Made by a program: the position numbers and the translations under genes. From a virus: 27,038 nucleotides of DNA. Location: positions 7,716 to 34,753 of the IMG/VR virus record IMGVR_UViG_3300003891_000027; one strand, 5' to 3'. The notes beneath the pieces are model-generated. The model ran no database searches. It saw only the letters and a list, made by a program, of their open reading frames with translations, and was not told the origin of the DNA. Positions 2,937 to 23,336 of this stretch are shown here, piece after piece (position 1 is the stretch's first letter; every line of letters begins with the position of its first letter).

Positions 2937-4265
2937 CTAATCACCCATATTGAGTAGTAATAGCGAAATATCATCAATATAATGCTGCCTGCTAGGAGGA
3001 GCAGTACCCACAGTCGTAACAGGTAGAGGAATAGGCGATGGTATTACAGGTGTTTTTGCCATCGATTCTAATTCCCTTCTTCTATCCTCTACGGCTAAAT
3101 CAGTAGCTCTTTCTGATAAAATATCAGATAACGATTCTTTCACACTTTCTATAGGCTTTGGCTTAGGCTCTTCTCTTTTAGTAAAAAATTCTTTTACCTT
3201 TTCAAAAAACCCAGCTTTTTTTAATAAAAACCCAAATACTCCTATTATCAATAACGGCCAAAACTTAACAAGTAATCCCATAATTATAGGAACTAATATC
3301 CTACCCAACATAGGTAGAAGGGATTTAAAAAACATAGGAATAGTACGCACAATAAAAGAAAGAGCTGACCTAAATAACCCAATAAAAAACCCACTGAATA
3401 GCCCACCAATACGCTTCACTAACACAGAACTAAAAATAAACTTAAAAAGCCAACCAAAAAAACTAAATAACTTATTAACTAATATCCTCTCAACTCCAAT
3501 CTTAGCCAGTGGACCAAGACCAAAGAACTGAAGCAAAGTAGCAATAATACCCTTACTCTCAAACCCCACTTTCTCAAGCTTATCATCCAATAAATCATAT
3601 ACATCTTCTTGATACCTTCTTAATACTTCATGATGCTTTCTGTTATCTGAAACCATCGTCTTCAGGGGATCTTTTAATTCTTCTAACTTTGTAATTACCT
3701 TTTTGTCCTTCTCTTTTTTAGAAATTTCTTCAAGCTTCTCTATAGCTTCTTCAATTAATTCATTACCTTGATAATTCTTTTTCCTTAAATCCTTTAAATT
3801 CATATCATGTAGTGCACTACTTTTATCCTGCATAAGAAATAAATTTTCTAAATTCTCTATAATACTCTGCTGATATTTCATCGATAACTCACCTGATTGA
3901 TGAATACGCTTAAGCATATCAATTATAGTATCTAGCCTAAGACTGAACTCTCCTTTTACTTCACCAAAAACTTTTGAAATTTCATCAAAGCTTCCCAAAA
4001 ATTCACCATATTCTTTTGGCGGAAGATGCGGAAACTTCTTCTCACTCTCAATAAACCACTTACTTTCAAACTTCTCTATTGCAGCACGCAATGCATCATT
4101 AGATACGGATAGTGCTTTTAATGCATCAATGTTTTCCCTAAATAGTGCAATTGTATTTTTAATAAGATTCAATAGAAGAGATAGACTTTTCCCTGTGATA
4201 TCCATTTTCATTTTTATTCTGTCTACCCCCTTTAGGAAATCTGTTATTACAGCTTCTTCTACCAT
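2937..4265 (-). CDS. Tail tape-measure protein candidate
   Basis: A 442-residue protein with an all-helical N-terminal half (residues 1-235, heptad-like, Lys/Glu-rich), a long hydrophobic and glycine-containing stretch at about 239-353 (e.g. GWLFKFIFSSVLVKRIGGLF, ILVPIIMGLLVKFWPLLIIG) and a Pro-rich tail (PSPIPLPVTTVGTAPP). That architecture, and the position directly after the tail-tube genes and the putative tail-assembly chaperone, are those of a tape measure: it sets tail length and is ejected with the DNA to breach the inner membrane. At about 1.5 angstrom per residue it would span a short tail, well below T4 gp29 (about 590 residues). The ATG follows the TAA of the -2 frame with no gap and has only a weak ribosome site, suggesting coupling to the frameshifted reading frame. 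Confidence 0.6.
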   Translation of the reverse strand: MVEEAVITDFLKGVDRIKMKMDITGKSLSLLLNLIKNTIALFRENIDALKALSVSNDALRAAIEKFESKWFIESEKKFPHLPPKEYGEFLGSFDEISKVFGEVKGEFSLRLDTIIDMLKRIHQSGELSMKYQQSIIENLENLFLMQDKSSALHDMNLKDLRKKNYQGNELIEEAIEKLEEISKKEKDKKVITKLEELKDPLKTMVSDNRKHHEVLRRYQEDVYDLLDDKLEKVGFESKGIIATLLQFFGLGPLAKIGVERILVNKLFSFFGWLFKFIFSSVLVKRIGGLFSGFFIGLFRSALSFIVRTIPMFFKSLLPMLGRILVPIIMGLLVKFWPLLIIGVFGFLLKKAGFFEKVKEFFTKREEPKPKPIESVKESLSDILSERATDLAVEDRRRELESMAKTPVIPSPIPLPVTTVGTAPPSRQHYIDDISLLLLNMGD

Positions 4266-5118
4266 TTATATCTTAGTTTCTTTTAGAAATTTGATAAGCT
4301 CTTCATTTAAATATTTTACTTCTGTGAAATCCATTTGATTAAGCACTATAGGATCAATGTGCAGTTTTAGAGCCAAAACGAATTCTACCTGCAAAAGATT
4401 CAGTATCGGTACGAAAGGGAAGAAGAAGAGCTTGCCCCCCATCAAGCTCAACTTCATTATCCCTTCCACAACTACAATGACTTACTATCGGCTTTACTCC
4501 ATGATATAAAAGCTTATCCAAATGAGATACAAGCTGGAAATCTTTTGCTGTAAGATTCATAAATACATTATACATTTCATTAAATTCAATATTTCTTGCT
4601 GAATATGATAAAAGTGCAACACTATCAGTTTCATAACCATTATCAATCGCTTTATAATAATCTTTTAGTGTAAGTGGAGTAAATGCATACTCCTTATCAT
4701 TAAATGTTACATATACAGGTAAACTCGGTACATTCAAATCTTCAAATTCAAGCTTTGATATATCAACAATTATGAAATTTTTATTCCCACAAATACATGG
4801 AGATGTTATCTGAAACTTTGCGTCACCAAATGATGAAATTTTTCTAAGTAGCCCCAAATACAAAAAATCCCCAACTGTTAAATCCAATTTATCAAAACTA
4901 CACTGAATACCTTCAAGAATAAAATTAAAGATATCCTTAGTAGATAACTTACTCTGGGAAATCTTTTTTACTTCGCCAAAAGTATATGGCTTATATTTGA
5001 TTTGGGAATTGGCTGGATATGTTATCCCTTTTGAAGGAAGGGAATCTAATTTTACATCTATTTCAGGTAAGTAAGTAGTAGTAGTGGATTTCGGATTAAA
5101 ACTTGTTACGGTTTTCAT
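4266..5118 (-). CDS. Predicted -2 frameshift fusion of the tail assembly chaperone (284 aa)
   Basis: Reading 228 zero-frame codons to the second GGG of a GGGGGGC run (4440-4434), slipping back two bases, and continuing at GGC (4436) gives 56 more residues (GKLFFFPFVPILNLLQVEFV and on to LKETKI). The -2 frame is closed by TAA only about 20 codons upstream of the slip site and stays open through the zero-frame stop to 4266. Its stop directly abuts the tape-measure ATG. Known precedent: conserved frameshifting in tail-assembly genes, with a -2 shift on a G-run in phage Mu. The extension has no usable strong ribosome site of its own. What is seen: run, frames, hairpin. What is inferred: that the shift occurs. 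Confidence 0.5.
4354..5118 (-). CDS. Tail assembly chaperone / gp26-like baseplate hub assembly protein (zero-frame product)
   Basis: A 254-residue protein resembling the T4 gp26-type family: LPSKGITYP near residue 27, then YKPYTFGEVKKISQ, a cysteine near 73, DFLYLGLLRKISSFGD at 84-99 and a paired C-x-C (C108, C110) matched by a second C-x-C (C215, C217). The four cysteines could bind one zinc. The gene lies exactly between tail tube and tape measure, the place of the tail-assembly chaperone (lambda G/GT, Mu 41/42). A modest ribosome site (AAGGG) precedes the ATG. The last 26 residues overlap an alternative open frame that continues past the stop; see the fusion entry and slippery site. Confidence 0.6.
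   Translation of the reverse strand: MKTVTSFNPKSTTTTYLPEIDVKLDSLPSKGITYPANSQIKYKPYTFGEVKKISQSKLSTKDIFNFILEGIQCSFDKLDLTVGDFLYLGLLRKISSFGDAKFQITSPCICGNKNFIIVDISKLEFEDLNVPSLPVYVTFNDKEYAFTPLTLKDYYKAIDNGYETDSVALLSYSARNIEFNEMYNVFMNLTAKDFQLVSHLDKLLYHGVKPIVSHCSCGRDNEVELDGGQALLLPFRTDTESFAGRIRFGSKTAH
4428..4449 (-). promoter_or_regulatory. Candidate -2 frameshift site: G6C run in a perfect inverted repeat
   Basis: On the transcribed strand the codons GAT GGG GGG CAA contain the run GGGGGGC (4440-4434). A tRNA-Gly on the second GGG re-pairs perfectly after a two-base backward slip. The run is flanked by a perfect 7-bp inverted repeat, GAGCTTG (4449-4443) and CAAGCTC (4434-4428), so the G-run falls in the 8-nt loop. 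The amino acids encoded (ELDGGQAL) impose part of this sequence, so the hairpin may be fortuitous. A GAAGGG lies about 20 nt upstream, farther than usual for a stimulatory Shine-Dalgarno. Confidence 0.5.
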
Positions 5119-5130
5119 ATAATATTACCC

Positions 5131-5658
5131 TTAAGTCCATACACCAGTAGAATAAAAGGTCTCTAGTTTAGAACTTGTATTATCTGCAACAATAATAAAG
5201 TCAACACTATATTCATAAGGTGCACTATCAGAACTACCATCATAGCGCACCACACCCTCAGGGATAACATTATATGAAATAGATTGCTGTATTTCTTTTT
5301 TTCTATTTAATTTTAATATCGTTATAGTCTTAGCAACATCTTCTAACGGACTTAAACAAAACCCCGAATTAAAAATTTCAATATTAATCCAACCTGCTAA
5401 CCATAGTGATAATGTATTATATTCATCATCATAGAAGCTTAACTTAAGCCTTCTTATTTTTTGGTTCTTGGGAACAGCATAAGTTGACATATAACGGGTA
5501 AACTCAAAGTGCTCTACTACTGCCATATCTTCTTCTATAGAAGTAGCTGGAAAAAACTTATCAAATGGTTTAGGCGCACCTTCAATCTGTACATCCCAAA
5601 GATATTTCTGCCCCCACTCAATTTCCCTTATTACTTCTATATTATCTAGAAATGCCAT
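5131..5658 (-). CDS. Second tail-tube-fold protein
   Basis: A 175-residue protein with the gp19/tube-fold pattern: N-terminal YLWDVQIEG strand, a central VPKNQKIRRLKLSFYDDEYN, a helix with LSLWLAGWINIEI, and C-terminal strands SYNVIPEGVVRYDG and YEYSVDFIIVAD. It follows the first tube gene with its ATG directly after that stop (GGGTAAATGG), so translation is coupled. It is only distantly similar to the first tube protein. It may be a minor tube subunit, a tube-terminal ring, or a baseplate-proximal adaptor such as gp54; the sequence alone does not decide. Confidence 0.6.
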   Translation of the reverse strand: MAFLDNIEVIREIEWGQKYLWDVQIEGAPKPFDKFFPATSIEEDMAVVEHFEFTRYMSTYAVPKNQKIRRLKLSFYDDEYNTLSLWLAGWINIEIFNSGFCLSPLEDVAKTITILKLNRKKEIQQSISYNVIPEGVVRYDGSSDSAPYEYSVDFIIVADNTSSKLETFYSTGVWT

Positions 5659-6189
5659 TTACCCAGTTACTGGACCATCTTTGAAATAATCATAATTAAG
5701 AACTAATGTAGGTTTCTGTATATCTGATTCTGCAGATGTCATCGTAGCAAAATCAAAACTTTGAAGAAAACAACCTACTAATATAAATTCCCAAAACGGT
5801 TTATCTTCATTGTTGAGCTGCGTTAGATTAATATCAGCCTGAAGCTGAGCTTTAGAAAAAGCACTTCTACCTTCACCTGTTACCCAAATAGCTTCACGCC
5901 ATTTTCTAAAGAAATTATGAATCTTACCATCCACTGTAGCTGCAAATGTTAATGTGATATCCCGCTCATAATCATATATACCAGGCTGACGCACCTTAAG
6001 CCCCCTAATAGATACATCAATAGTAGAACCAGTAAGCTTAGGAAGCGTAAAAGATTCACAACGAAAATTTAAATCCTCTTTATTGAAATCAGCTACTGCA
6101 GGAGGAAGCGTAATAAACGTCAAATTCCAACGATATAACGTCGCAAAATCCCCAATACCCCTAATATTCTCTATAGTAGGTCTAGCCAT
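5659..6189 (-). CDS. Tail tube protein, gp19-like
   Basis: A 176-residue protein of the T4 gp19 type (T4 gp19 is 163 residues), which stacks in hexameric rings to form the inner tail tube. The N-terminus has GDFATLYRWNLTFITLPPAV; then FRCESFTLPKLTGSTIDVSI, the loop that places R/K-GLKVRQPG before an ITLTFAATVDGKIHNFFRKW strand-helix unit, and a C-terminal NYDYFKDG. This order (F-W/N-V strand, SF.LP motif, ITLTF strand, F..W helix) is diagnostic. AAAGGAGA sits 6 nt before the ATG, and the gene directly follows the sheath gene, as 19 follows 18 in T4. Confidence 0.85.
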   Translation of the reverse strand: MARPTIENIRGIGDFATLYRWNLTFITLPPAVADFNKEDLNFRCESFTLPKLTGSTIDVSIRGLKVRQPGIYDYERDITLTFAATVDGKIHNFFRKWREAIWVTGEGRSAFSKAQLQADINLTQLNNEDKPFWEFILVGCFLQSFDFATMTSAESDIQKPTLVLNYDYFKDGPVTG

Positions 6190-8511: not shown

Positions 8512-8775
8512 CTACTCGATATAGTTCTCCTTCATAAACCATTCACTATGATTAGTATTAAGATATTGATGAATCCCGTCTAAATCTCCACTCCACAGTA
8601 CATAACTTTGTACTTCCTGCGGTACAGAACCAATCCGTTTTAAAATACACTTTGAACCATCGAGACTTTTAACTACAGTATTCCAATCAGTTTCAACAAT
8701 TCCTTGAGGTTTAAGCTGATTAAATTCAGTCTCACCGAATCCCGTTGATAAATCAATAATCATATATGTATTCAT
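8512..8775 (-). CDS. Hypothetical protein downstream of the LamG-bearing gene (87 aa)
   Basis: An 87-residue acidic protein of unknown role. It starts in an ATGA overlap with the stop of the LamG-bearing gene, with GAGG 7 nt upstream, so the two are translationally coupled. Visible parts are YMIIDLSTGFGETEFNQL, a WNTVVKSLDGSKCILKRI hairpin and SYVLWSGDLDGIHQYL. Like the adjacent LamG segment it is less AT-rich than the genes around it. I infer it came in with the LamG domain, perhaps as an assembly chaperone or cap for the projecting domain, as small genes often follow fibre genes. There is no direct evidence for that role. Confidence 0.6.
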   Translation of the reverse strand: MNTYMIIDLSTGFGETEFNQLKPQGIVETDWNTVVKSLDGSKCILKRIGSVPQEVQSYVLWSGDLDGIHQYLNTNHSEWFMKENYIE

Positions 8776-10127
8776 GGTACATCCTCGACTTTGTCACTAG
8801 ATTCCATATTTATCGGCGTTCCAACATAGTGATTATTCGATAAGTCTACTACGCTCCCACCCCCACCAAGATTATCGTTCTCCCATGTCACCCACAGTGT
8901 TTTTGGATTGGATTTTACTTCATTCCATCGGGAGAATGTTGTCATATCCTTTTCTTTGCCGCCATTATACAATTCCAATACTTCTGATTCAGTACATGCA
9001 ATTGGTAGAACTACAATATCACCCAACACACCCCAATAGTACAACATATTAAGACCAATATAACATTTTTGAGTATCATATGTAATTTGTGAAGCACTAC
9101 CACTACCATGCACATAAGATCGTATCACGCCGTCTAGATATAGAGTAATATCAGTATTCCAGTTTCCTGTAACATATTTATAAACAGCAGTCACATGATA
9201 CCATTGATTGAGATTGATCACTGTACTCATTGCTTTATACCACGCACCACCCTGCCCATTGAACAAAAATCCTGGGGCTTGCCCACCATTCAACATCATC
9301 AGTGCCCATCCTTGATAAGAGTAAGTTTTATATCCTATCATTCCTTCCCAATCACGTCGGTCGAACGCTTTAAACCAACACGACACAGTGAACTCGTCGG
9401 TTTCTGTAAATTGAAGAATTTGACCTAAATCAATATATTCATCCACCCCGTCAAGACTAGCATTATATCGTGACTGAAATAATTTACCTTTTACAAAACT
9501 ACCCAATAATAACGAATAAAAATTCTTTATCCTTCCCTCAATATTTAAAATAATAGAATTATCACCCCTAAGAACAAAGAAAAATCCACGTACTAAAATT
9601 TTCCCACTTAACATTTTGTAATAATTACCCTCTGATTCAAATACTTTGCTTTCAAGAATCGATGGAAATGTATAATACGAAAAATTCCCTAACTGAGGAA
9701 TCTCTACACTAATTTCTCTTATACCCGATATACCCTCCTCAGATAAATACGCTATCTCAAAATTCTCTATCTCTGATACATTCTTAGTAATCCATAAAAA
9801 CTCAATATCAAACTCACCAAACACCTTCCGATATATTATATTCTTATTATTCTCTACTACCTTTCTAACAATCTCCGATATAGAACGCTTCTGTGCACCT
9901 ATTGAAGCATAGCGTAACGCAGTCCGCCTAAACGCAAATATCGGATACGGTATCTCAACATTCTTAGAATATAAATCAGAACGAGCTCGCAAAAACTCTA
10001 CTATAGATTCATAAGTTAATTTCTCATTATAAACAAACTTAATATCTGATATATCGTTCTTAATTCTCTTTAAAAGCTCTTCTACTGGCAATACTACAGT
10101 GTTTACTACTCTTAATAAGGAATCCAT
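8772..10127 (-). CDS. Putative tail-completion (gp15-like) protein fused to a LamG/concanavalin-like domain
   Basis: A 451-residue two-part protein. Residues 1-215 look like a tail terminator or sheath stabiliser: VEIPYPIFAFRRTALRYASI, then FDIEFLWITKNVSEIENF (compare the helix-strand pattern of T4 gp15) and YYKMLSGKILVRGFFFVL. The gp15 match is by pattern and position (between neck candidates and sheath), so it is tentative. Residues about 218-392 form a clear LamG/jelly-roll domain: NASLDGVDEYIDLG, FTETDEFTVSCWFKA, NLNQWYHVTAVY, DITLYLDGVI and KCYIGLN, ending in the family-typical VLELYNGGK. Such domains bind glycans or decorate virions. The LamG part (about 8952-9476) is less AT-rich than the N-terminal part (60 nt at 8821-8880 hold 27 G/C, versus 15 at 9541-9600), suggesting acquisition. 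Confidence 0.7.
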   Translation of the reverse strand: MDSLLRVVNTVVLPVEELLKRIKNDISDIKFVYNEKLTYESIVEFLRARSDLYSKNVEIPYPIFAFRRTALRYASIGAQKRSISEIVRKVVENNKNIIYRKVFGEFDIEFLWITKNVSEIENFEIAYLSEEGISGIREISVEIPQLGNFSYYTFPSILESKVFESEGNYYKMLSGKILVRGFFFVLRGDNSIILNIEGRIKNFYSLLLGSFVKGKLFQSRYNASLDGVDEYIDLGQILQFTETDEFTVSCWFKAFDRRDWEGMIGYKTYSYQGWALMMLNGGQAPGFLFNGQGGAWYKAMSTVINLNQWYHVTAVYKYVTGNWNTDITLYLDGVIRSYVHGSGSASQITYDTQKCYIGLNMLYYWGVLGDIVVLPIACTESEVLELYNGGKEKDMTTFSRWNEVKSNPKTLWVTWENDNLGGGGSVVDLSNNHYVGTPINMESSDKVEDVP

Positions 10128-12858: not shown

Positions 12859-15800
12859 TTAACTCCCTTGATCACCCCTCAAAGAGAATGGAGTGTTTGG
12901 ATCTAACATAGCAGCACCAATCTGGTCTGCAAAAGGCACTGAAGAACCAAACAACTTACTCATAAGTAATCTGCCCTGCTTCATTGTGTTGTTAGAAATA
13001 TCACTCATCTGAAGCCCTTTAAGCTGCTGATATAGAATAGTGAATGCATGAGCACATGCAACTACTCTCATATCAAATATAGCAATTTGCCCTTTGAAGC
13101 TAGATTGCTCAAAACTACCAAGTCTCATGAATCTTACAACATCAGCCTTATACTTTTCTACTGAAACAATCAAATCACTATCTGTATTTGATGTACTATC
13201 AATAAGCTGCTCATCCCCAAATTCATATTCATAAGTACGAGGCTCTTTCTTTGTTGTAAGTTCCATATGATTTATGATGCCCCATAACTTCTCTTTTCCC
13301 TCACCTTCATTCTTCACCATGATTCTTTGCAGCGTATTGATTCTAGGATTCCTTAAATCAGTAGTTGGATCATCAGGTTGGTGCAATATGTCTATAGTCT
13401 CTTCTCCAATTTTTACTTCAGTCTGCAATACTTCATTCACTAGATATACTTCATAATGATTCTCTGTATCAAATCTAAAGCTAAAATAGCATACATTCTC
13501 TACGCCAAATTCAAACACAACACCCTTCCATCCTGTTGGATTTGGCATAAAGATGAAATCATTGATTAATCCAATAAACATATCCCTCACATGTTGTTTT
13601 TTGGAAACAATGACTGGTATCGAATTATTCATCTTAAATCCAGCCCAAAGATTAGGTTTTGTAAATTCTACACTGTATAATAACGCTGGAGGTAACCAGT
13701 CTTTATCCAAGATTTCAAGACTCAATGAGCCTTTGTATTTCTTTGGACGTCGAATTAATCCATGTTTATCTTTTAAATCATCCCATTTTACATAATTCTT
13801 GCCATAGATTTGTACAATATATGGTTTAGTCTTATGTACTATTTCACCTTCTTGAAGTACTTCTGGATCTAATCCTAATTCAGTAACTTCATCTATTCCC
13901 AACTCTACTTTGCCAAGCTCTGGAACTGCATTCTGAATAGCGAGTCTCAGCTCTTCTAGTTTTTCCTTATCCCAATACGCTGATGCATTAAATGGCTCTT
14001 CATCTTTAGAAATCCTATAGATTCCATTATATTGTTTATACGTCCACATCCCTGGAACCAGAAATTGCACTGGACTATACACCTTCTTAATCCTTCTCAA
14101 ATCCCCAGGAGCATATTCCACTAAATCACCAGGCTCAACTGGAATCATTGGCGGCTCAGATAACGTAAGCACATTTCTATATATTGGCATATTATACAAT
14201 GCAGTATAAAGATCAGGTTGACCAATCACGAAATCGGCTGGCTCATAATTAGTGGTTGGTATTTTCCGCCAACACATTATTCTAGTCATAGGTATACCAG
14301 TACCTGCAAATGAACCTGTCCATGAACCTGCAAATACCCTCTCACCATCACTTGTTACTGAATTTGCTTGCCCAATAAAACAATATGGATCAACTACATT
14401 ATATCCCTTACCAACTACAACATCATAAGATTGATTATTAACAGTTGGGAAAGTGTTCCAAATTAATAATCTTGCTCCACCTACATCAGTAACAATAACC
14501 TTTACACCATCTGACCAAACTTGATATGGCCAAGTAAACATAGGTGAAGATTTCGTATTAAAATTAGGCTGACCTAATACAAGATCTGCTGCTTGATAAG
14601 TAGTTAAATTTGCAACATCATTCCAGATAAGTGCTCTATGATTCAGATAATCTATAACTAATAATTTATTATCAACAACTTCTATTCCATTAGGGATGAA
14701 CATTTTTTTATCTGATAATCCATTCGAAGTAGTTGTCATATCAGGTTGACCAATTACAATATCCGCTGATTGATAACTAGATTGTGGTATAGTATTAAAA
14801 ATAAGTATCCTATGATTTCCTGAATCAGATATAAATAATCGATTATTATATTCTCTAACACATTGCGGTAGGTATAAACTCTTATTTGTACTCTTTGAAT
14901 ATAGAAACCAAGAATCAAAATTATATTTACTTAATACTTCATCAGCTAACTGTCCATTAGTTGTTGGTAATGAGTTCCAAACCATTACCCTATGATTATT
15001 AGAATCAGATACCAAAAGTTTACCAGCAACAACTCTAACACATAATGGATTAGCTAATTTTAATTGACTTGTACCACCAGAACCAGTCACAAAATCAGTC
15101 TGACCTAATACAACATCGGCTGATTGACCACTAACTAATCCCGAAAAATTATTCCAAATTAATACCCGATTATTCCCTGCATCAGTTACAAATAATCTAT
15201 TATTCTCTACCCAAGAAGTTGAAGGATAATTCATCTTATTAGCAGCAGTTCCAGCAGAAGCTGTTGTACCAAGTACTATATTTGCAGAAGCTCCATTTGA
15301 ACTTGGTATACTATTGAAAATAAGTACTCTATGATTAAGATCATCAGTTACAATTAATTTAGTTCCAGAAACTTTAACCCCAAAAGGATTATTCATCTTA
15401 TCATTCGTTGTTCCAGTAGAATTAGTAGTGAAATTTGGTTGACCCACCACAACATTCGCAGGCTGGAAATTAGAAGTTGGTACCGTGTTCCAAATAAGTA
15501 CCCTGTTGTTACCCCTATCCGCTACAATCAATTTGGTTCCATCAGTTTCAAGTTGGCTCTCACTACTCGCTAAACTTTTGGCTGATAATCCACCATAATT
15601 CCATGCATTAGTAGTAAAATCAGGTTGCCCAATAACCACATCCGCGGGCTTAAAATTAGTCAACGTTGTAATATCATTCCAAATAAGTATTCTATTATTC
15701 CCTCTATCCGCTACAGCTAATTTATTGCCAATTATGACACAACCTGTAGGTAGATATAAGCTCTTCGCTGAAAGCCCACCATTATTAGGTGTATTAGATG

Positions 15801-18800
15801 CTATATCAGGTTGACCTAACACAACACTCACACTTTCCATTGTTTGTTCACTATATGAACTTGGTATGGTATTCCAAATGAGCACCCTATGATTCAATCT
15901 ATCTGCTATAACTAATCTAGTACCATCAGAAGTTACTTGATCAGGTTGATATAATCCCCTAAGTTCACTACCATAATTATAAACATTAGTTGTCATATCG
16001 GGCTGACCTAACACAAGATCAGCAGGCTGATTCATAGAAGTAGGTAAATTTTTCCAAATTAATACCCTATTATTATATATATCCGCTACATAAAGACGAC
16101 CTGAATCACTAATATAAGGAATAGCTACATTAAATTTATTAATAACTCCTCCTGTATTCTCATAAAAGTTATCTTGACCTAAGACAAGCTGGGCTGGCTC
16201 CCCGTCTTCTGTTGGTATAGGTTTATAAATAAGCACTCGATAATTACTACCATCACCAACTGCCAACATATCATATTTTTTAGAAATATAAGGAAAAGCA
16301 TATCCTTTTAGTGATGCTGCATTAACATATTCTTGTGTTGAAGAATTATCATTAAAATCAGGTTGACCTAATACAATATCAGCAGGTTGAAAGTTTGATG
16401 TAACTTCATTCCAAATTAAAACTCTATTATTCCCTTGATCTGTAACAAATAACTTTTCACCAACGAATAAACAACCTAATGGAAGATTTAGAGTTCTTTC
16501 TGATATTCCATTTATGTTAGCTACACTTGAAGTGAAATCAGGTTGACCTAATACAAGATCAGCAGGCTTATAAGTATATAAGCTATTCACATCATTCCAA
16601 ATAGTCACTCTATGAGCATTTCTATTAACTACTGCAAGCTTCCCACTTTCACTAATATCAAGCATTGTTGGATAATATGTATGATATTGATCTACTACAT
16701 TTGTTACTGTAGTGAAATCTGGTTGCCCTAATACCATATCACATGGAACCCCTGTAGAAGTCGGCAAAGTATTCCAAATCATAATACGATTTGATAGATA
16801 CGTATCCCAATAAGTACATACAAATAATTTGCCAAAACGTACTTTTACATCCTGAATATCACCACCTGCATATAGATTAGTTACTGCACGTGCTGTTGAA
16901 CCATTATGTGGCTGACAAACCACAAAATCTGCTGGCTGGAAATTACGAGTTGGAAATGTATTCCAAACAAGCACTCTATGATTCCATGCATCAGCAATAA
17001 AAAGCTTACCATCTTCACTCATATCAATTCCAGCAGGACCATTCATAGAACCTGCATGAGGTCCTCCTACTCCTGTAGAAGTAAAATTAGGCTGACCAAA
17101 TACACCATTCGCTGGAGTATCATTTTGAGTTGGAATCCCATTCCACCATAAATATCTATTAGAATCCGTAGCAACAAATAATTTATTGTCGATAAATGCT
17201 GGGTGTTGAGTATATATCATTGCTCTTTTTTCATTACGTTCAGTTTTTATATTTGATGTGAAGTCGGGCTGAAGTAATACAACATCGGCTGGCTGTCCAT
17301 TAGTTGTTGGGAATGTATTCCAAATCATTACTCTTACATTTTGCCCGCCTTCTGTCACAACTAATTTTCCATTTGCAGCCATTACTCCATAAACATATCC
17401 CATTTTACTAGCAGTTGTTCCAGAAGAATTTGTAGTGAAGTCGGGTTGCCCGATAACTAAATCAGCCGATTGTCCATTAGTTGTTGGTATTGTGTTGAAA
17501 ATAAGTGCTCTTCTATTACCAGAATCAGCTACCAAAAGTTTACCCTCATAAACATAAACTCCTACTGGATTACTCATTTTACTAGCAGTACATGCTGCAG
17601 AATTTGTAGTGAAGTCTGGCTGACCCACCACAACATCCGCAGGCTGGAAATTAGAAGTTGGTACTGTATTCCAAATAAGTACTCTATGATTATTTCTATC
17701 TGCTACAATCAATTTGATTCCATCAGTAGCTATATTAGTGTCATCTCCCAAAACCAAACTCTTAGCTGATAATCCACCATTATTAACTACTCTCGATGTG
17801 AAATCTGGTTGCCCTAATACTACATCAGCAGGTTTCCCATTATAAAGATTTGTAACATCATTCCAAATAAGTATTCGATAGTTTGCTGTATCAGCAACAA
17901 CTAATTTGCCATTAATTATAACGCATCCAGATGGACCATAAAGACCACTTTGAGTAGTTCTTGAAGTTATATCCCAAAAATTAGATTGACCTAATACTAT
18001 ATCAGGCATTGTAGATTCATCCCAACGCGTTGGAATACTATTCCAAATTAAAACTCTACTATTGAAACTACATACTACTAATCTAGTTCCATCAGTCCAC
18101 ATTTGTCGTCCACTATACAATAATAATGTATTATTATTACTTCTATTAGTTACAAAGTCGTTTTGCCCTAATACAATATCCGCAGGCTTGAAATTAGAAG
18201 TTGGTATGCTATTCCAAATTAAGGCTCTATGATTACTTGTATCACTTACAATCATTTTATTATCATTTGTTAAATGTACATCATAAGGCCAATTTAAATT
18301 ATATTGATTTGGCCCTGTTCCTCTTGCATATGCTGTATTAGATGTGAAATTAGGCTGACCATATACGATATCAGCAGGTACAGATGAAGTAGGAATAGAA
18401 TTCCAAATGAGCAATCTATTATTACCCCAATCAACTACAACTAATTTAGAACCAATTTCCTTAACATCAGAAGGATTTTTAAATTGTGTTTCTGAAGTAC
18501 CTGCTGTAGAACCTAAATAAAAATCTGGAGTTGGACTATTGGTTTGAGGAATACTATTCCAAACATAAATTCTATGAGTACCCCATCCTGGAACAAATAA
18601 TCGTCCCGTAGAAGTAACACAAAAAGTATGTAATCCTAAACCACTTTCACTTGTATTAAAATCAGATTTAAATAATACAACATCGGCTGGTGCGAAATTA
18701 GAAAGTTCAGAAACACTATTCCAAATAAGAAGCCTACCATTTACTGAATCAGTAACAAGAAGTCTACCCTGATAAATAAAAACTCCAATTGGATCATATA

Positions 18801-19932
18801 AACTTCTTGCTGATACTCCACCATTATTAGCTATATTTGATGTAAAATTGGGTTGACCTAACACAACATCGGCTGGCTGCCCATTAGTTAATGTTGTAAT
18901 ATCATTCCAAATAAGCACCCTATGATTCCCTCTATCTACTACAACTAATCTAGTTCCATCTGAAGCTACCCCCTCAGGAAAATTTAAAGTACTTGCTGAT
19001 ATACCACCAGCATTAGCTTGATTATGATAAAAATCAGATTGACCTAATACAATACTTGCAGGGGCAAAATTAGAATTAATATCACTTTTTTTCCAAATAA
19101 GCACTCTATTATTCCCCTGTTCTGCAGCAATTAAATAATTTTCAGTCCATGCAACTCCTCTAGGTAAAGAGAGAGAACTTTCGGAAAGTCCCCCTGAATT
19201 AGCAGTAGTTTCCTGGAAATTATCTTGACCCAGCACATAATCAGGATGCTCTGTCCAATCTTGAGGTAAACTATTCCAAATTAAAATTCTATTACTTGCA
19301 ATTTCAGATAAAGCAACATGTGTACCATCAGTATTTATCGTTTCAGCACCATATAATGTTTTCCCTGTAATAGGATTATTATTCGCTGTGCCCATTGTCA
19401 TATTGGGTTGACCTACTACAACATCCGCTGCATCTAAAAAACTTTCTGGCAATTTATTCCAAATGAGCACCCTATGATTTTGTTGATCTGCTACCGCAAA
19501 TTTTTCACCATTATAACTCATACCAATACCACGTATTACACGACCATTTAAAGAATTTGTTGGATCTGCTGGATAAAATGCATCTTTGATAGTTATAGAT
19601 TCACCAAATTTAATTTTTTTACAAAGTAGTCCTATGGAATAAATCTTCACCTCTTCAGTAGATTGAATAGAAGTACTTGATTGAGGATCATTAACAATTC
19701 TTGTATAGAAAGCTACGCCATCCTTCACAACCCCTGCTAATCCCTCAGAGGTACTATGATCTGTAGCTGGCTCAAACTTATATTTTTCAGTGCTTTTACT
19801 CTGAATATATTGATTCATAGCATCAACAATTTTTGCTATGACAGCTTGGTTCTGAGAACTGTCTGCTTTATATGTGAAAGCAGGTGTAGCTACAATAATA
19901 CCAGAATGATTAGTCCAATGTTTTGATTCCAT
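12859..19932 (-). CDS. Giant NHL-repeat beta-propeller virion protein (2357 aa)
   Basis: The longest gene in the window. After an N-terminal domain of about 125 residues (possible attachment domain) come about 30 units of roughly 56-60 residues built on N-H-R-V-L-I-W-N...P-A-D-V-V-L-G-Q-P-D-F, each with a following G-x-L/V-x-V-A-D strand; this is the NHL class of beta-propeller repeats. Units at about 14160-19530 could form several propellers. The C-terminal ~430 residues are a distinct strand-rich domain, ending MLDPNTPFSLRGDQGS. A strong AAAGGAGA precedes the ATG. It lies between the capsid module and neck genes, so it is probably a head or neck appendage for host or glycan binding. No signal peptide is visible. 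The role is inferred from position and repeats only. Confidence 0.9.
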   Translation of the reverse strand: MESKHWTNHSGIIVATPAFTYKADSSQNQAVIAKIVDAMNQYIQSKSTEKYKFEPATDHSTSEGLAGVVKDGVAFYTRIVNDPQSSTSIQSTEEVKIYSIGLLCKKIKFGESITIKDAFYPADPTNSLNGRVIRGIGMSYNGEKFAVADQQNHRVLIWNKLPESFLDAADVVVGQPNMTMGTANNNPITGKTLYGAETINTDGTHVALSEIASNRILIWNSLPQDWTEHPDYVLGQDNFQETTANSGGLSESSLSLPRGVAWTENYLIAAEQGNNRVLIWKKSDINSNFAPASIVLGQSDFYHNQANAGGISASTLNFPEGVASDGTRLVVVDRGNHRVLIWNDITTLTNGQPADVVLGQPNFTSNIANNGGVSARSLYDPIGVFIYQGRLLVTDSVNGRLLIWNSVSELSNFAPADVVLFKSDFNTSESGLGLHTFCVTSTGRLFVPGWGTHRIYVWNSIPQTNSPTPDFYLGSTAGTSETQFKNPSDVKEIGSKLVVVDWGNNRLLIWNSIPTSSVPADIVYGQPNFTSNTAYARGTGPNQYNLNWPYDVHLTNDNKMIVSDTSNHRALIWNSIPTSNFKPADIVLGQNDFVTNRSNNNTLLLYSGRQMWTDGTRLVVCSFNSRVLIWNSIPTRWDESTMPDIVLGQSNFWDITSRTTQSGLYGPSGCVIINGKLVVADTANYRILIWNDVTNLYNGKPADVVLGQPDFTSRVVNNGGLSAKSLVLGDDTNIATDGIKLIVADRNNHRVLIWNTVPTSNFQPADVVVGQPDFTTNSAACTASKMSNPVGVYVYEGKLLVADSGNRRALIFNTIPTTNGQSADLVIGQPDFTTNSSGTTASKMGYVYGVMAANGKLVVTEGGQNVRVMIWNTFPTTNGQPADVVLLQPDFTSNIKTERNEKRAMIYTQHPAFIDNKLFVATDSNRYLWWNGIPTQNDTPANGVFGQPNFTSTGVGGPHAGSMNGPAGIDMSEDGKLFIADAWNHRVLVWNTFPTRNFQPADFVVCQPHNGSTARAVTNLYAGGDIQDVKVRFGKLFVCTYWDTYLSNRIMIWNTLPTSTGVPCDMVLGQPDFTTVTNVVDQYHTYYPTMLDISESGKLAVVNRNAHRVTIWNDVNSLYTYKPADLVLGQPDFTSSVANINGISERTLNLPLGCLFVGEKLFVTDQGNNRVLIWNEVTSNFQPADIVLGQPDFNDNSSTQEYVNAASLKGYAFPYISKKYDMLAVGDGSNYRVLIYKPIPTEDGEPAQLVLGQDNFYENTGGVINKFNVAIPYISDSGRLYVADIYNNRVLIWKNLPTSMNQPADLVLGQPDMTTNVYNYGSELRGLYQPDQVTSDGTRLVIADRLNHRVLIWNTIPSSYSEQTMESVSVVLGQPDIASNTPNNGGLSAKSLYLPTGCVIIGNKLAVADRGNNRILIWNDITTLTNFKPADVVIGQPDFTTNAWNYGGLSAKSLASSESQLETDGTKLIVADRGNNRVLIWNTVPTSNFQPANVVVGQPNFTTNSTGTTNDKMNNPFGVKVSGTKLIVTDDLNHRVLIFNSIPSSNGASANIVLGTTASAGTAANKMNYPSTSWVENNRLFVTDAGNNRVLIWNNFSGLVSGQSADVVLGQTDFVTGSGGTSQLKLANPLCVRVVAGKLLVSDSNNHRVMVWNSLPTTNGQLADEVLSKYNFDSWFLYSKSTNKSLYLPQCVREYNNRLFISDSGNHRILIFNTIPQSSYQSADIVIGQPDMTTTSNGLSDKKMFIPNGIEVVDNKLLVIDYLNHRALIWNDVANLTTYQAADLVLGQPNFNTKSSPMFTWPYQVWSDGVKVIVTDVGGARLLIWNTFPTVNNQSYDVVVGKGYNVVDPYCFIGQANSVTSDGERVFAGSWTGSFAGTGIPMTRIMCWRKIPTTNYEPADFVIGQPDLYTALYNMPIYRNVLTLSEPPMIPVEPGDLVEYAPGDLRRIKKVYSPVQFLVPGMWTYKQYNGIYRISKDEEPFNASAYWDKEKLEELRLAIQNAVPELGKVELGIDEVTELGLDPEVLQEGEIVHKTKPYIVQIYGKNYVKWDDLKDKHGLIRRPKKYKGSLSLEILDKDWLPPALLYSVEFTKPNLWAGFKMNNSIPVIVSKKQHVRDMFIGLINDFIFMPNPTGWKGVVFEFGVENVCYFSFRFDTENHYEVYLVNEVLQTEVKIGEETIDILHQPDDPTTDLRNPRINTLQRIMVKNEGEGKEKLWGIINHMELTTKKEPRTYEYEFGDEQLIDSTSNTDSDLIVSVEKYKADVVRFMRLGSFEQSSFKGQIAIFDMRVVACAHAFTILYQQLKGLQMSDISNNTMKQGRLLMSKLFGSSVPFADQIGAAMLDPNTPFSLRGDQGS
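14160..19530 (-). repeat. Array of about 30 NHL-type repeats within the giant gene
   Basis: I counted 30 units containing a form of R-V-L-I-W-N, most followed by P-A-D-V-V-L-G-Q-P-D-F. Some are almost identical at DNA level, such as the units near 15430-15500 and 17620-17690 (both encode NTVPTSNFQPA[DN]VVVGQP). Others have diverged (e.g. the unit with RIMCWRKIPT near the C-terminal end). This is consistent with growth by segmental duplication. Confidence 0.9.
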
Positions 19933-21908: not shown

Positions 21909-23336
21909 TTATGGAACAATATTAAAGTTAGTCACAAATTGAGGCACAAGCGATTCCACAGCTCCCCAAACAGCAGCAGCTTTCATTTGGAGTAGTGGAT
22001 TCGGTGCCATCGGCAATGTCGCTGTGACTGTAAGTGGCATAAATGGACTATATACAGCCGCAGCCTCAAAAGGTGAGGCTCCTTTCCAAACTGCAAGTCC
22101 ATCATTAGTTCCAAGTATGTTGGGCTCAACTACTCTTACTACCGTTACTCCATCCAGAGTACCAAATACATGAGTTCCAAGAGTAGAACCATCATATAGT
22201 CTCTGGAATCCTGGAAGGGTTTGTATAACAGCAGCATGACGCTTTCCGACAATGAGTAGCGCAATAGAACCACGACCTGAATTATCAACTAGCACGCTTT
22301 CAGCAACTGCTAATTGATCTTTGTAGGTCTGTTTGTGTTCAAAATAGCTCACATTAGCTGGTGGCGTAAGTGAAAAAGTAGTGGTTCCTAAAGCAACTGC
22401 TTTAAGTTTCCTTATAAGATCACCACCAATTTCTTTATTAATCTCAACAACCAAATCCTTTGCAAGCTCATCTTCCGCAACCAAACCAAACCGCTTGCTC
22501 ATTCCAAAGCTTTGAAGTAGACCAATCACCCCTTTAAGTGCATACACTCTGGCAAAAACGCCACGACTATCAAAAAATGTATCAACTTGGGGAAGATCCG
22601 CTGAAAGCTCATAGTTCTGTTGCCATGTTGCAACAATATCTTTTCCATCGCCTGGATCAGAAGCAAGTGTAATACTAACAACACCAGTCATATAATCCAC
22701 AGTACCAGATAGCCCAATACCAAAAATAAGACCATTACTGCTCTGTGGATCATTTCCCATATCCCTACCTTGAACTGATGTACCAGAAAGTGTAAGAGAA
22801 AGACTCTCACGCTTCAACGGTGCACCTGGTAGTGTGAACGTATATGCTACTTGTCCCGAAACCGTAGTTGCAACAACCTGATCCGAGAAAATATTTGATG
22901 CATACCCAGTAGGAACCACAGAACCAGTACGCGGATCAATAACCACATTACCAGCGGTTTGGCTGCCTTTTGTTGTAGCAGAACGCACCTGTTTGAAATA
23001 AACAGTACCACGCTCTTCTTCAATAGGCTGAACTGATGCAATCACTGGAATAACAGAAGCACCATACACTGCAGTAATAACATCATATGCTATAGTAGGA
23101 ATCCTACCAAGCAAATTAACGTTGCCCTGCTCTTCACAAATACGTTTATACGTATCCCATTGCTCCAATTGTTTCCCTAGTGCATATGCATCATAAGGCT
23201 CCACTTTTCCCTTAACCTTAGCAAGCATTGAATGCTCAAGCAAATCAATATACTTGCCATATTTGTCATAATATTTCTCTGCAAGTGATTCCACTTTCTT
23301 AAGCTGAAGTTCAGCTTTTTCATCAAGATTACCCAT
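21909..23336 (-). CDS. Major capsid protein, T4 gp23-like
   Basis: A 475-residue HK97-fold capsid protein of the T4 type. Near residues 76-110 comes LGRIPTIAYDVITAVYGASV, then IPVIASVQPIEEERGTVYFK, matching the T4 gp23 stretch of the RRAIPNLIAFDICGVQPMNSPTGQ type in order and spacing (from memory). The C-terminus MKAAAVWGAVESLVPQFVTN fits. The first ~68 residues are a charged helical region; I66-C67-E68 is an (I)-x-E triplet near where T4 gp23 is cut (after residue 65), so maturation would leave about 407 residues. L32-L33-E34 is another candidate. AAAGGAG lies 6-7 nt before the ATG. It follows the protease-scaffold gene, as 23 follows 21-22 in T4. Confidence 0.92.
   Translation of the reverse strand: MGNLDEKAELQLKKVESLAEKYYDKYGKYIDLLEHSMLAKVKGKVEPYDAYALGKQLEQWDTYKRICEEQGNVNLLGRIPTIAYDVITAVYGASVIPVIASVQPIEEERGTVYFKQVRSATTKGSQTAGNVVIDPRTGSVVPTGYASNIFSDQVVATTVSGQVAYTFTLPGAPLKRESLSLTLSGTSVQGRDMGNDPQSSNGLIFGIGLSGTVDYMTGVVSITLASDPGDGKDIVATWQQNYELSADLPQVDTFFDSRGVFARVYALKGVIGLLQSFGMSKRFGLVAEDELAKDLVVEINKEIGGDLIRKLKAVALGTTTFSLTPPANVSYFEHKQTYKDQLAVAESVLVDNSGRGSIALLIVGKRHAAVIQTLPGFQRLYDGSTLGTHVFGTLDGVTVVRVVEPNILGTNDGLAVWKGASPFEAAAVYSPFMPLTVTATLPMAPNPLLQMKAAAVWGAVESLVPQFVTNFNIVP

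Follow-up and report, generated by a model that had tools for sequence, protein, structure and literature searches.

A putative +1 programmed ribosomal frameshift at CCC_UUU_CGU in viral tail assembly chaperone genes of the T4 gp26/gp51 family

A tail assembly chaperone gene of the T4 gp26/gp51 family, present on a viral contig, is probably decoded with a +1 programmed frameshift at UUU_C, by which chaperones of 254 and 283 amino acids (aa) would be made in the manner of lambda G/GT. We place the probability of this reading at about 0.9. It is carried by the shift site, the C-terminal extension, the dual coding of the overlap and a structure signal upstream of the site, each of which is evident from comparison of the sequences. 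The DNA analyzed (the window) is a stretch of 27,038 nucleotides and forms part of the 34.8-kb IMG/VR virus record IMGVR_UViG_3300003891_000027. The features of the region are as follows.

5659 to 6189, minus strand: tail tube gene of the T4 gp19 type (PHROG 45, E 3e-18)
5131 to 5658, minus strand: second tube-like gene, named by position, directly upstream of the chaperone gene
4354 to 5118, minus strand: zero-frame chaperone gene, 254 aa (PF12322, E 1.5e-9; PHROG 150, E 2.9e-11)
4428 to 4449, minus strand: upstream hairpin GAGCTTG(ATGGGGGG)CAAGCTC, arms 4449-4443 and 4434-4428, loop 4442-4435 formed by a G-run
4434 to 4441, minus strand: Shine-Dalgarno (SD)-like 8-mer TGGGGGGC, 17 nt before UUU; GGAGG in relatives
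4411 to 4419, minus strand: putative +1 site CCC_UUU_CGU, E-site CCC 4419-4417, P-site UUU 4416-4414, A-site CGU 4413-4411
4266 to 4412, minus strand: +1-frame extension, 48 codons (V236 to I283) plus TAA 4268-4266, predicted to be helical
2937 to 4265, minus strand: tape-measure-like gene, 442 aa, named by position; its ATG (4265-4263) abuts the TAA of the extension

The match of the chaperone gene to PF12322 scored 38.3 bits against a curated Pfam cut-off of 24.5, and by this profile assignment the 254-aa protein is a tail assembly / baseplate-hub chaperone of the T4 gp26/gp51 family. In the window its gene comes after those for the sheath, the tube and the second tube-like protein and before the tape-measure-like gene. 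The order in relatives is sheath-tube-tube-chaperone-tape measure, and in the window and relatives alike the chaperone gene lies between tail tube and tape measure, the position of a G/GT gene. The gene at 5131 to 5658, which was without a family match in Pfam or PHROG scans, occupies the spot of proteins annotated as 'tail tube initiator' or 'baseplate tail-tube protein' in relatives. The same two scans returned no informative family match for the tape-measure-like gene. Elsewhere in the window a T4 gp23-type major capsid protein is encoded at 21909-23336 (minus; PF07068, E 7.1e-11), so that a distant likeness to T4 holds for its head genes as well as for its tail genes. The phage structural region also encodes a 2357-aa protein with many NHL repeats (12859-19932, minus; PF01436, E 5.5e-47), probably a large tail-associated beta-propeller-like protein, and near the tail genes lies a gene for a concanavalin A-like lectin domain protein (8772-10127, minus; PF13385, E 6.2e-16) that is possibly a surface-binding protein.

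Homologues were collected by tblastn against phage genomes, and the three frames were read in phages of Rhizobium, Vibrio, Pseudomonas, Escherichia, Acinetobacter, Thermus, Xanthomonas and Streptococcus and then in IMG/VR contigs. A single-protein search of viral contigs returned no relatives, and alignment queries were required to find them; a pattern scan of genome contigs for prophage relatives found none. The resulting non-redundant set comprised 43 homologues, any two of which share less than 70% identity (median 30%). No frameshift was annotated in the phage records examined, in which the extension was missing or given as a separate hypothetical protein. The homologues of Thermus phage phiLo (L010, 2965-3711) and Rhizobium phage RHph_TM39 (L002, 2962-3747) appear to be PF12322 chaperones, and the annotations 'DNA methylase' and 'peptidase domain-containing protein' that they carry both look mistaken.

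The proposed site lies in a zero-frame Pro-Phe-Arg (CCC TTT CGT) that is almost invariant among relatives, seven codons downstream of the G-run in the window. In 41 of the 43 homologues an in-frame UUU_C was found, and the +1 frame continued open beyond the stop of the zero frame; in two, UUU_C was missing. UUU_CGU or UUU_CGC was present at 37 of these 41 sites, with UUU_CGN standing at the 5' limit of the +1 open reading frame (ORF), and in many loci +1 stops located two to four codons upstream bound the slip point. Codon choice at the site was strongly biased: CGT encoded the Arg in 33 of 37 (P 1.6e-18; 9.0 predicted by local codon usage) and CCC the Pro in 25 of 36 (P 4e-16; 4.6 predicted by codon usage), while just 11 of 104 Phe-Arg pairs outside the site in the same loci were encoded as TTT CGT. 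Conservation of CGU may be due in part to the Val that it provides in the +1 frame. Since the rule for picking sites was fitted after inspection of the homologues, a fair test is provided by three distinct later loci (35.8-41% identity to the nearest earlier one), all of which had CCN_TTT_CGT and an extension. The extension lies in the +1/-2 frame and the conserved site is CCC_UUU_CGU, which does not correspond to a -1 slippage heptamer of the form X_XXY_YYZ. CGU was also considered as a hungry codon; its share of Arg codons ranged from 5 to 60% across loci and was thus not consistently low, which rules out a rare codon as the general trigger. Deviating sites were UUU_CCC_UAA (L012, 3661-3669), UUU_CCC_UAU (L011, 3649-3657), UUU_CAA (L053, near 3203) and UUU_CCU (L036, near 3215); in the L012 and L011 loci a slip on CCC_U is equally possible. 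A Cobetia relative (L013) is without UUU_C and ends CCT TGA.

The extension overlaps the last 19 zero-frame codons, and across the family a +1 extension of at least 44 residues is conserved and usually ends next to the tape-measure start. When each locus was left out in turn and the part beyond the zero-frame stop was modeled by a profile HMM, the +1 reading ranked first among the six-frame matches for 33 of the 35 loci, at a median E of 8e-7 (5.8e-9 for the window). In a dual-coding test, in which the zero-frame protein was held fixed and codons were redrawn by usage, the joint probability of an open +1 frame over the overlap in all loci was approximately 10^-9.5; restricted to the first 12 codons, it was 10^-7.4. 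Dozens of relatives have this overlapping frame open and its sequence conserved, so that its presence in the window appears to be more than chance, and these comparisons argue that the extension is translated. AlphaFold prediction of the fused 283-aa product gave a mean pLDDT of 84, with extension helices at 238-252, 256-260 and 264-280 of lower confidence than the core and a low-confidence joint at 236-243, based on an input alignment of the window and viral-contig rows in which the extension was without alignment support. The nearest predicted viral folds included proteins named T4-like baseplate hub assembly proteins. No homologue was found in the PDB by sequence or fold, and the family match was not extended when the fused protein, or just the extension, was scanned against PHROG and Pfam.

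By the mechanism we propose, most ribosomes would read the zero frame to the TGA at 4354 and produce the short 254-aa form, a ratio that we infer to favor this form over the long one. In a minority, with UUU in the P site and CGU in the A site, the ribosome would move one base forward as tRNA-Phe re-pairs from UUU to UUC; the tRNA behind it on CCC might likewise re-pair to CCU. P-site slippage of tRNA-Phe from UUU to UUC is the favored model for the +1 shift on UCC_UUU_CGU of influenza virus (PMC3498833). Ribosomes thus shifted would continue in the +1 frame and produce the 283-aa form with its helical C-terminal extension. If lambda gpG/gpGT is taken as a guide, coating of the tape-measure protein would fall to the short form and recruitment of the tube subunit to the long form. 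A -2 shift at UUU would lead to the same frame and is implausible on codon-anticodon grounds, as it needs tRNA-Phe to pair with CCU. The junction peptide predicted for the window is LDGGQALLLPFVPIL by the +1 reading and LDGGGKLFFFPF by a -2 shift at the G-run; the predicted tryptic +1 junction peptides are GVSQLAEPFVEMK for E. coli phages IME392 and EP_H11 and EDSMLVTPFVEPR for P. putida phage Amme-1.

Upstream of the site lies a perfect inverted repeat of 7 bp whose loop holds the G-run. This repeat had been remarked upon in a preliminary description of this DNA, and the family-wide analysis now supports a function for it. In the window the hairpin region (42 nt) folds at -16.0 kcal/mol (z -2.95). 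Sliding 40-nt folds were compared across the family to synonymous codon redraws, with positions given relative to UUU. By this approach, a structure signal was confined to two windows, -42..-2 (Fisher 2e-9) and -30..+10 (Fisher 3.4e-9). Pairing was in excess at -33..-27 and again at -19..-12, on either side of an unpaired loop; no structure signal was seen downstream of the site (mean z -0.31, windows just after the site flat). The register of the hairpin varies between lineages, and thus no single fixed stem was significant over the whole family (Fisher 0.42). In a subset chosen for sharing the register of the window, compensatory changes were found in three of seven pairs and shifted arms paired less, covariation which is supportive only, as the subset was selected. 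Codon choice in the loop favored pairing with the anti-SD (Fisher 2.8e-6), an enrichment not seen in control windows of the same genes. GGAGG is frequent in the loop among relatives and the G-run of the window lies exactly at that place, suggesting that inverted repeat and G-run are probably a stimulator and not the slip site. Taken at the level of sequence, a hairpin signal with an SD-like loop, 12-33 nt upstream of UUU, is under selection across the family. The hairpin likely stimulates the frameshift: re-forming at the mRNA exit, with its SD-like loop, it would probably aid the forward push. On 70S ribosomes, a hairpin upstream of and adjoining a shift site has been found to increase +1 and reduce -1 frameshifting, mimicking an internal SD (PMC6321510). 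In RF2 the SD abuts the E site, whereas the SD-like element described here is farther off, at about 17 nt from UUU, and for this reason the role of the hairpin is stated as likely.

The preliminary description had proposed a -2 frameshift on the GGGGGGC run as in phage Mu, in which peptidyl-tRNA-Gly slips two bases back. Much of what it saw stands, including GAT GGG GGG CAA at 4443-4432 (minus), an alternative frame that passes the zero-frame TGA (4356-4354) and reaches the TAA, the tape-measure-like ATG directly thereafter and, as judged from the homologues, a frameshifting chaperone of the T4 gp26 kind whose longer product ends beside the tape-measure gene. The alternative frame, described as opening about 20 codons upstream, follows a stop some 16 codons before the G-run and 23 before UUU 4416; of the products of 254 and 284 aa, the first holds, and the second is the length computed for -2 slippage on the G-run, compared to 283 for +1 slippage at UUU_C. 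GGG GGG C would indeed permit re-pairing of the GGG anticodon two bases back, into a frame that is open there in the window. Conservation among homologues, which the description had named as its check, bore out the overlapping frame but not the run: GGGGGG was found only in the window among the 41 non-redundant homologues with a site and in none of the 40 others, so that no conserved G-run of the Mu type is available as a slippery site. In addition, 14 of the 41 have a +1-frame stop at most seven codons upstream of UUU, several just two to four codons off, between the codons equivalent to the G-run and CCC_UUU_CGU, such that a shift at the G-run position would terminate at once. The zero frame beyond the run is also retained, its C-terminus (LLLPFRT...RIRFG) being kept in homologues, and the tblastn alignments with the zero frame extend up to residue 249, past the G-run, indicating that this tail is genuine. 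We therefore regard slippage on the G-run as very improbable; the frameshift of the preliminary description is very probably real, by this comparative evidence, with its position and direction in error.

Independent expression of the +1 frame as a small gene with its own start, via coupling or reinitiation, is about as improbable. Short ORFs are annotated as such in Rhizobium, Vibrio and some Pseudomonas phages, and a TTG is nearly universal at +1 codon 13. This TTG is, however, imposed by the overlap of Phe-Gly codons with those for Leu-Ala, the codon at position 1, GTN or GCN, is in many cases not a start codon, and ahead of codon 13 the +1 frame stays open more than chance would allow (the 10^-7.4 given above), which is evidence against independent initiation; the choice of CCC_UUU_CGU would moreover be left unexplained. 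Least credible is that one indel, whether an error of sequencing or assembly or a true mutation, splits an ordinary single ORF. Homopolymer G-runs are classical error sites and T4 gp51 is one continuous ORF, but the same frame relation recurs in 41 of the 43 divergent homologues, some of them from cultured phages with complete genomes, and the zero-frame tail after the site is conserved.

The proposed system resembles lambda gpG/gpGT in its placement between tube and tape measure and in a C-terminal extension, encoded in another frame, that ends beside the tape-measure gene. It differs in that the lambda shift is -1 on an X_XXY_YYZ heptamer, compared to +1 at CCC_UUU_CGU with an upstream hairpin in a protein of the T4 gp26/gp51 family. 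With influenza A PA-X (UCC_UUU_CGU) it shares the UUU_CGU core and the +1 direction; PA-X is made on the eukaryotic ribosome from an unrelated protein and with UCC, whereas CCC, an upstream hairpin and an SD-like loop are found here. A +1 shift at TTT-CGC has been proposed for chaperones of HF1-group haloarchaeal myoviruses from comparison of six genomes (PMC7230728), similarly between tail tube and tape measure, at UUU_CGC, but in an archaeal host. The proteins of halovirus HF2 match PHROG 14268/12163 with no PF12322 match and are thus not placed in the same family, and the occurrence of UUU_CGN in archaeal-virus chaperones of an apparently unrelated family is perhaps convergence. The HF2 chaperone gene (L077, 33341-33811, minus) ends AAG TTT CGC AGA TAG with the +1 frame open. 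Phage Mu gp41, with its -2 shift, is also a tail chaperone and the window has a GGGGGGC-type run; the run is unconserved and cannot serve in relatives. The +1 sites of Listeria phage PSA (CCC_UGA and CCC_UCC) likewise occur in phage tail and capsid genes and include the CCC codon, but belong to structural proteins, not chaperones, and are stimulated by a stop codon or a pseudoknot.

T4 gp26 and gp51, both given as hub assembly chaperones in a 2010 review (PMC3004832), belong to the same family, and the shift site corresponds to where gp26 ends; T4 has two genes without a frameshift, compared to one gene here. Two PF12322 genes are present in T4, and one or none detectable by the Pfam model in the frameshift phages searched. 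Of the 282 positions of PHROG 150, the match extends to 235 for gp26, 280 for gp51 and 233 for the zero frame of the window, where it ends just at the shift site, and in a protein alignment gp51 goes on where gp26 stops. A profile of the fused protein aligned with gp51 over its whole length (92% probability). This result was obtained without L075; with the frame-broken L075 included in the gp51 profile, only the N-terminal half aligned. L075 (1501-2246) carries the gp51 gene of a T4-like phage, its frame broken mid-match by mutation or sequencing error. The extension alone did not match the gp51 tail significantly in profile comparison (local P 0.15). The alignments thus place gp51 tail and extension in equivalent positions, with homology unsupported by a profile match, and gp26 and gp51 seem, from these comparisons, to be the short and long forms split into two paralogous T4 genes.

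A search of the open-access literature, with most subscription papers outside its scope, found no account of frameshifting in PF12322 proteins. A 2016 review describes the G-T frameshift as widely conserved in long-tailed phages 'except T4' (PMC5009743). Our judgment leans, with some reserve, to a broader reading in which a widespread class of contractile-tail phages would use an undescribed bacterial +1 signal, composed of UUU_CGU, a preceding CCC and a hairpin with SD-like loop located at the mRNA exit, and in which the T4 exception to the G/GT frameshift would be explained because gp26 and gp51 are short and long forms encoded by two genes. The T4-type chaperone family itself appears to frameshift, in the direction opposite to G-T and with a core like that of PA-X. 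If confirmed, this would provide a bacterial +1 system stimulated by a hairpin upstream of the site, would correct many phage annotations that omit the extension or list it as a hypothetical protein of its own, and would suggest that gp26 and gp51, described as hub assembly chaperones and in the case of gp51 without an assigned function, correspond to G and GT.
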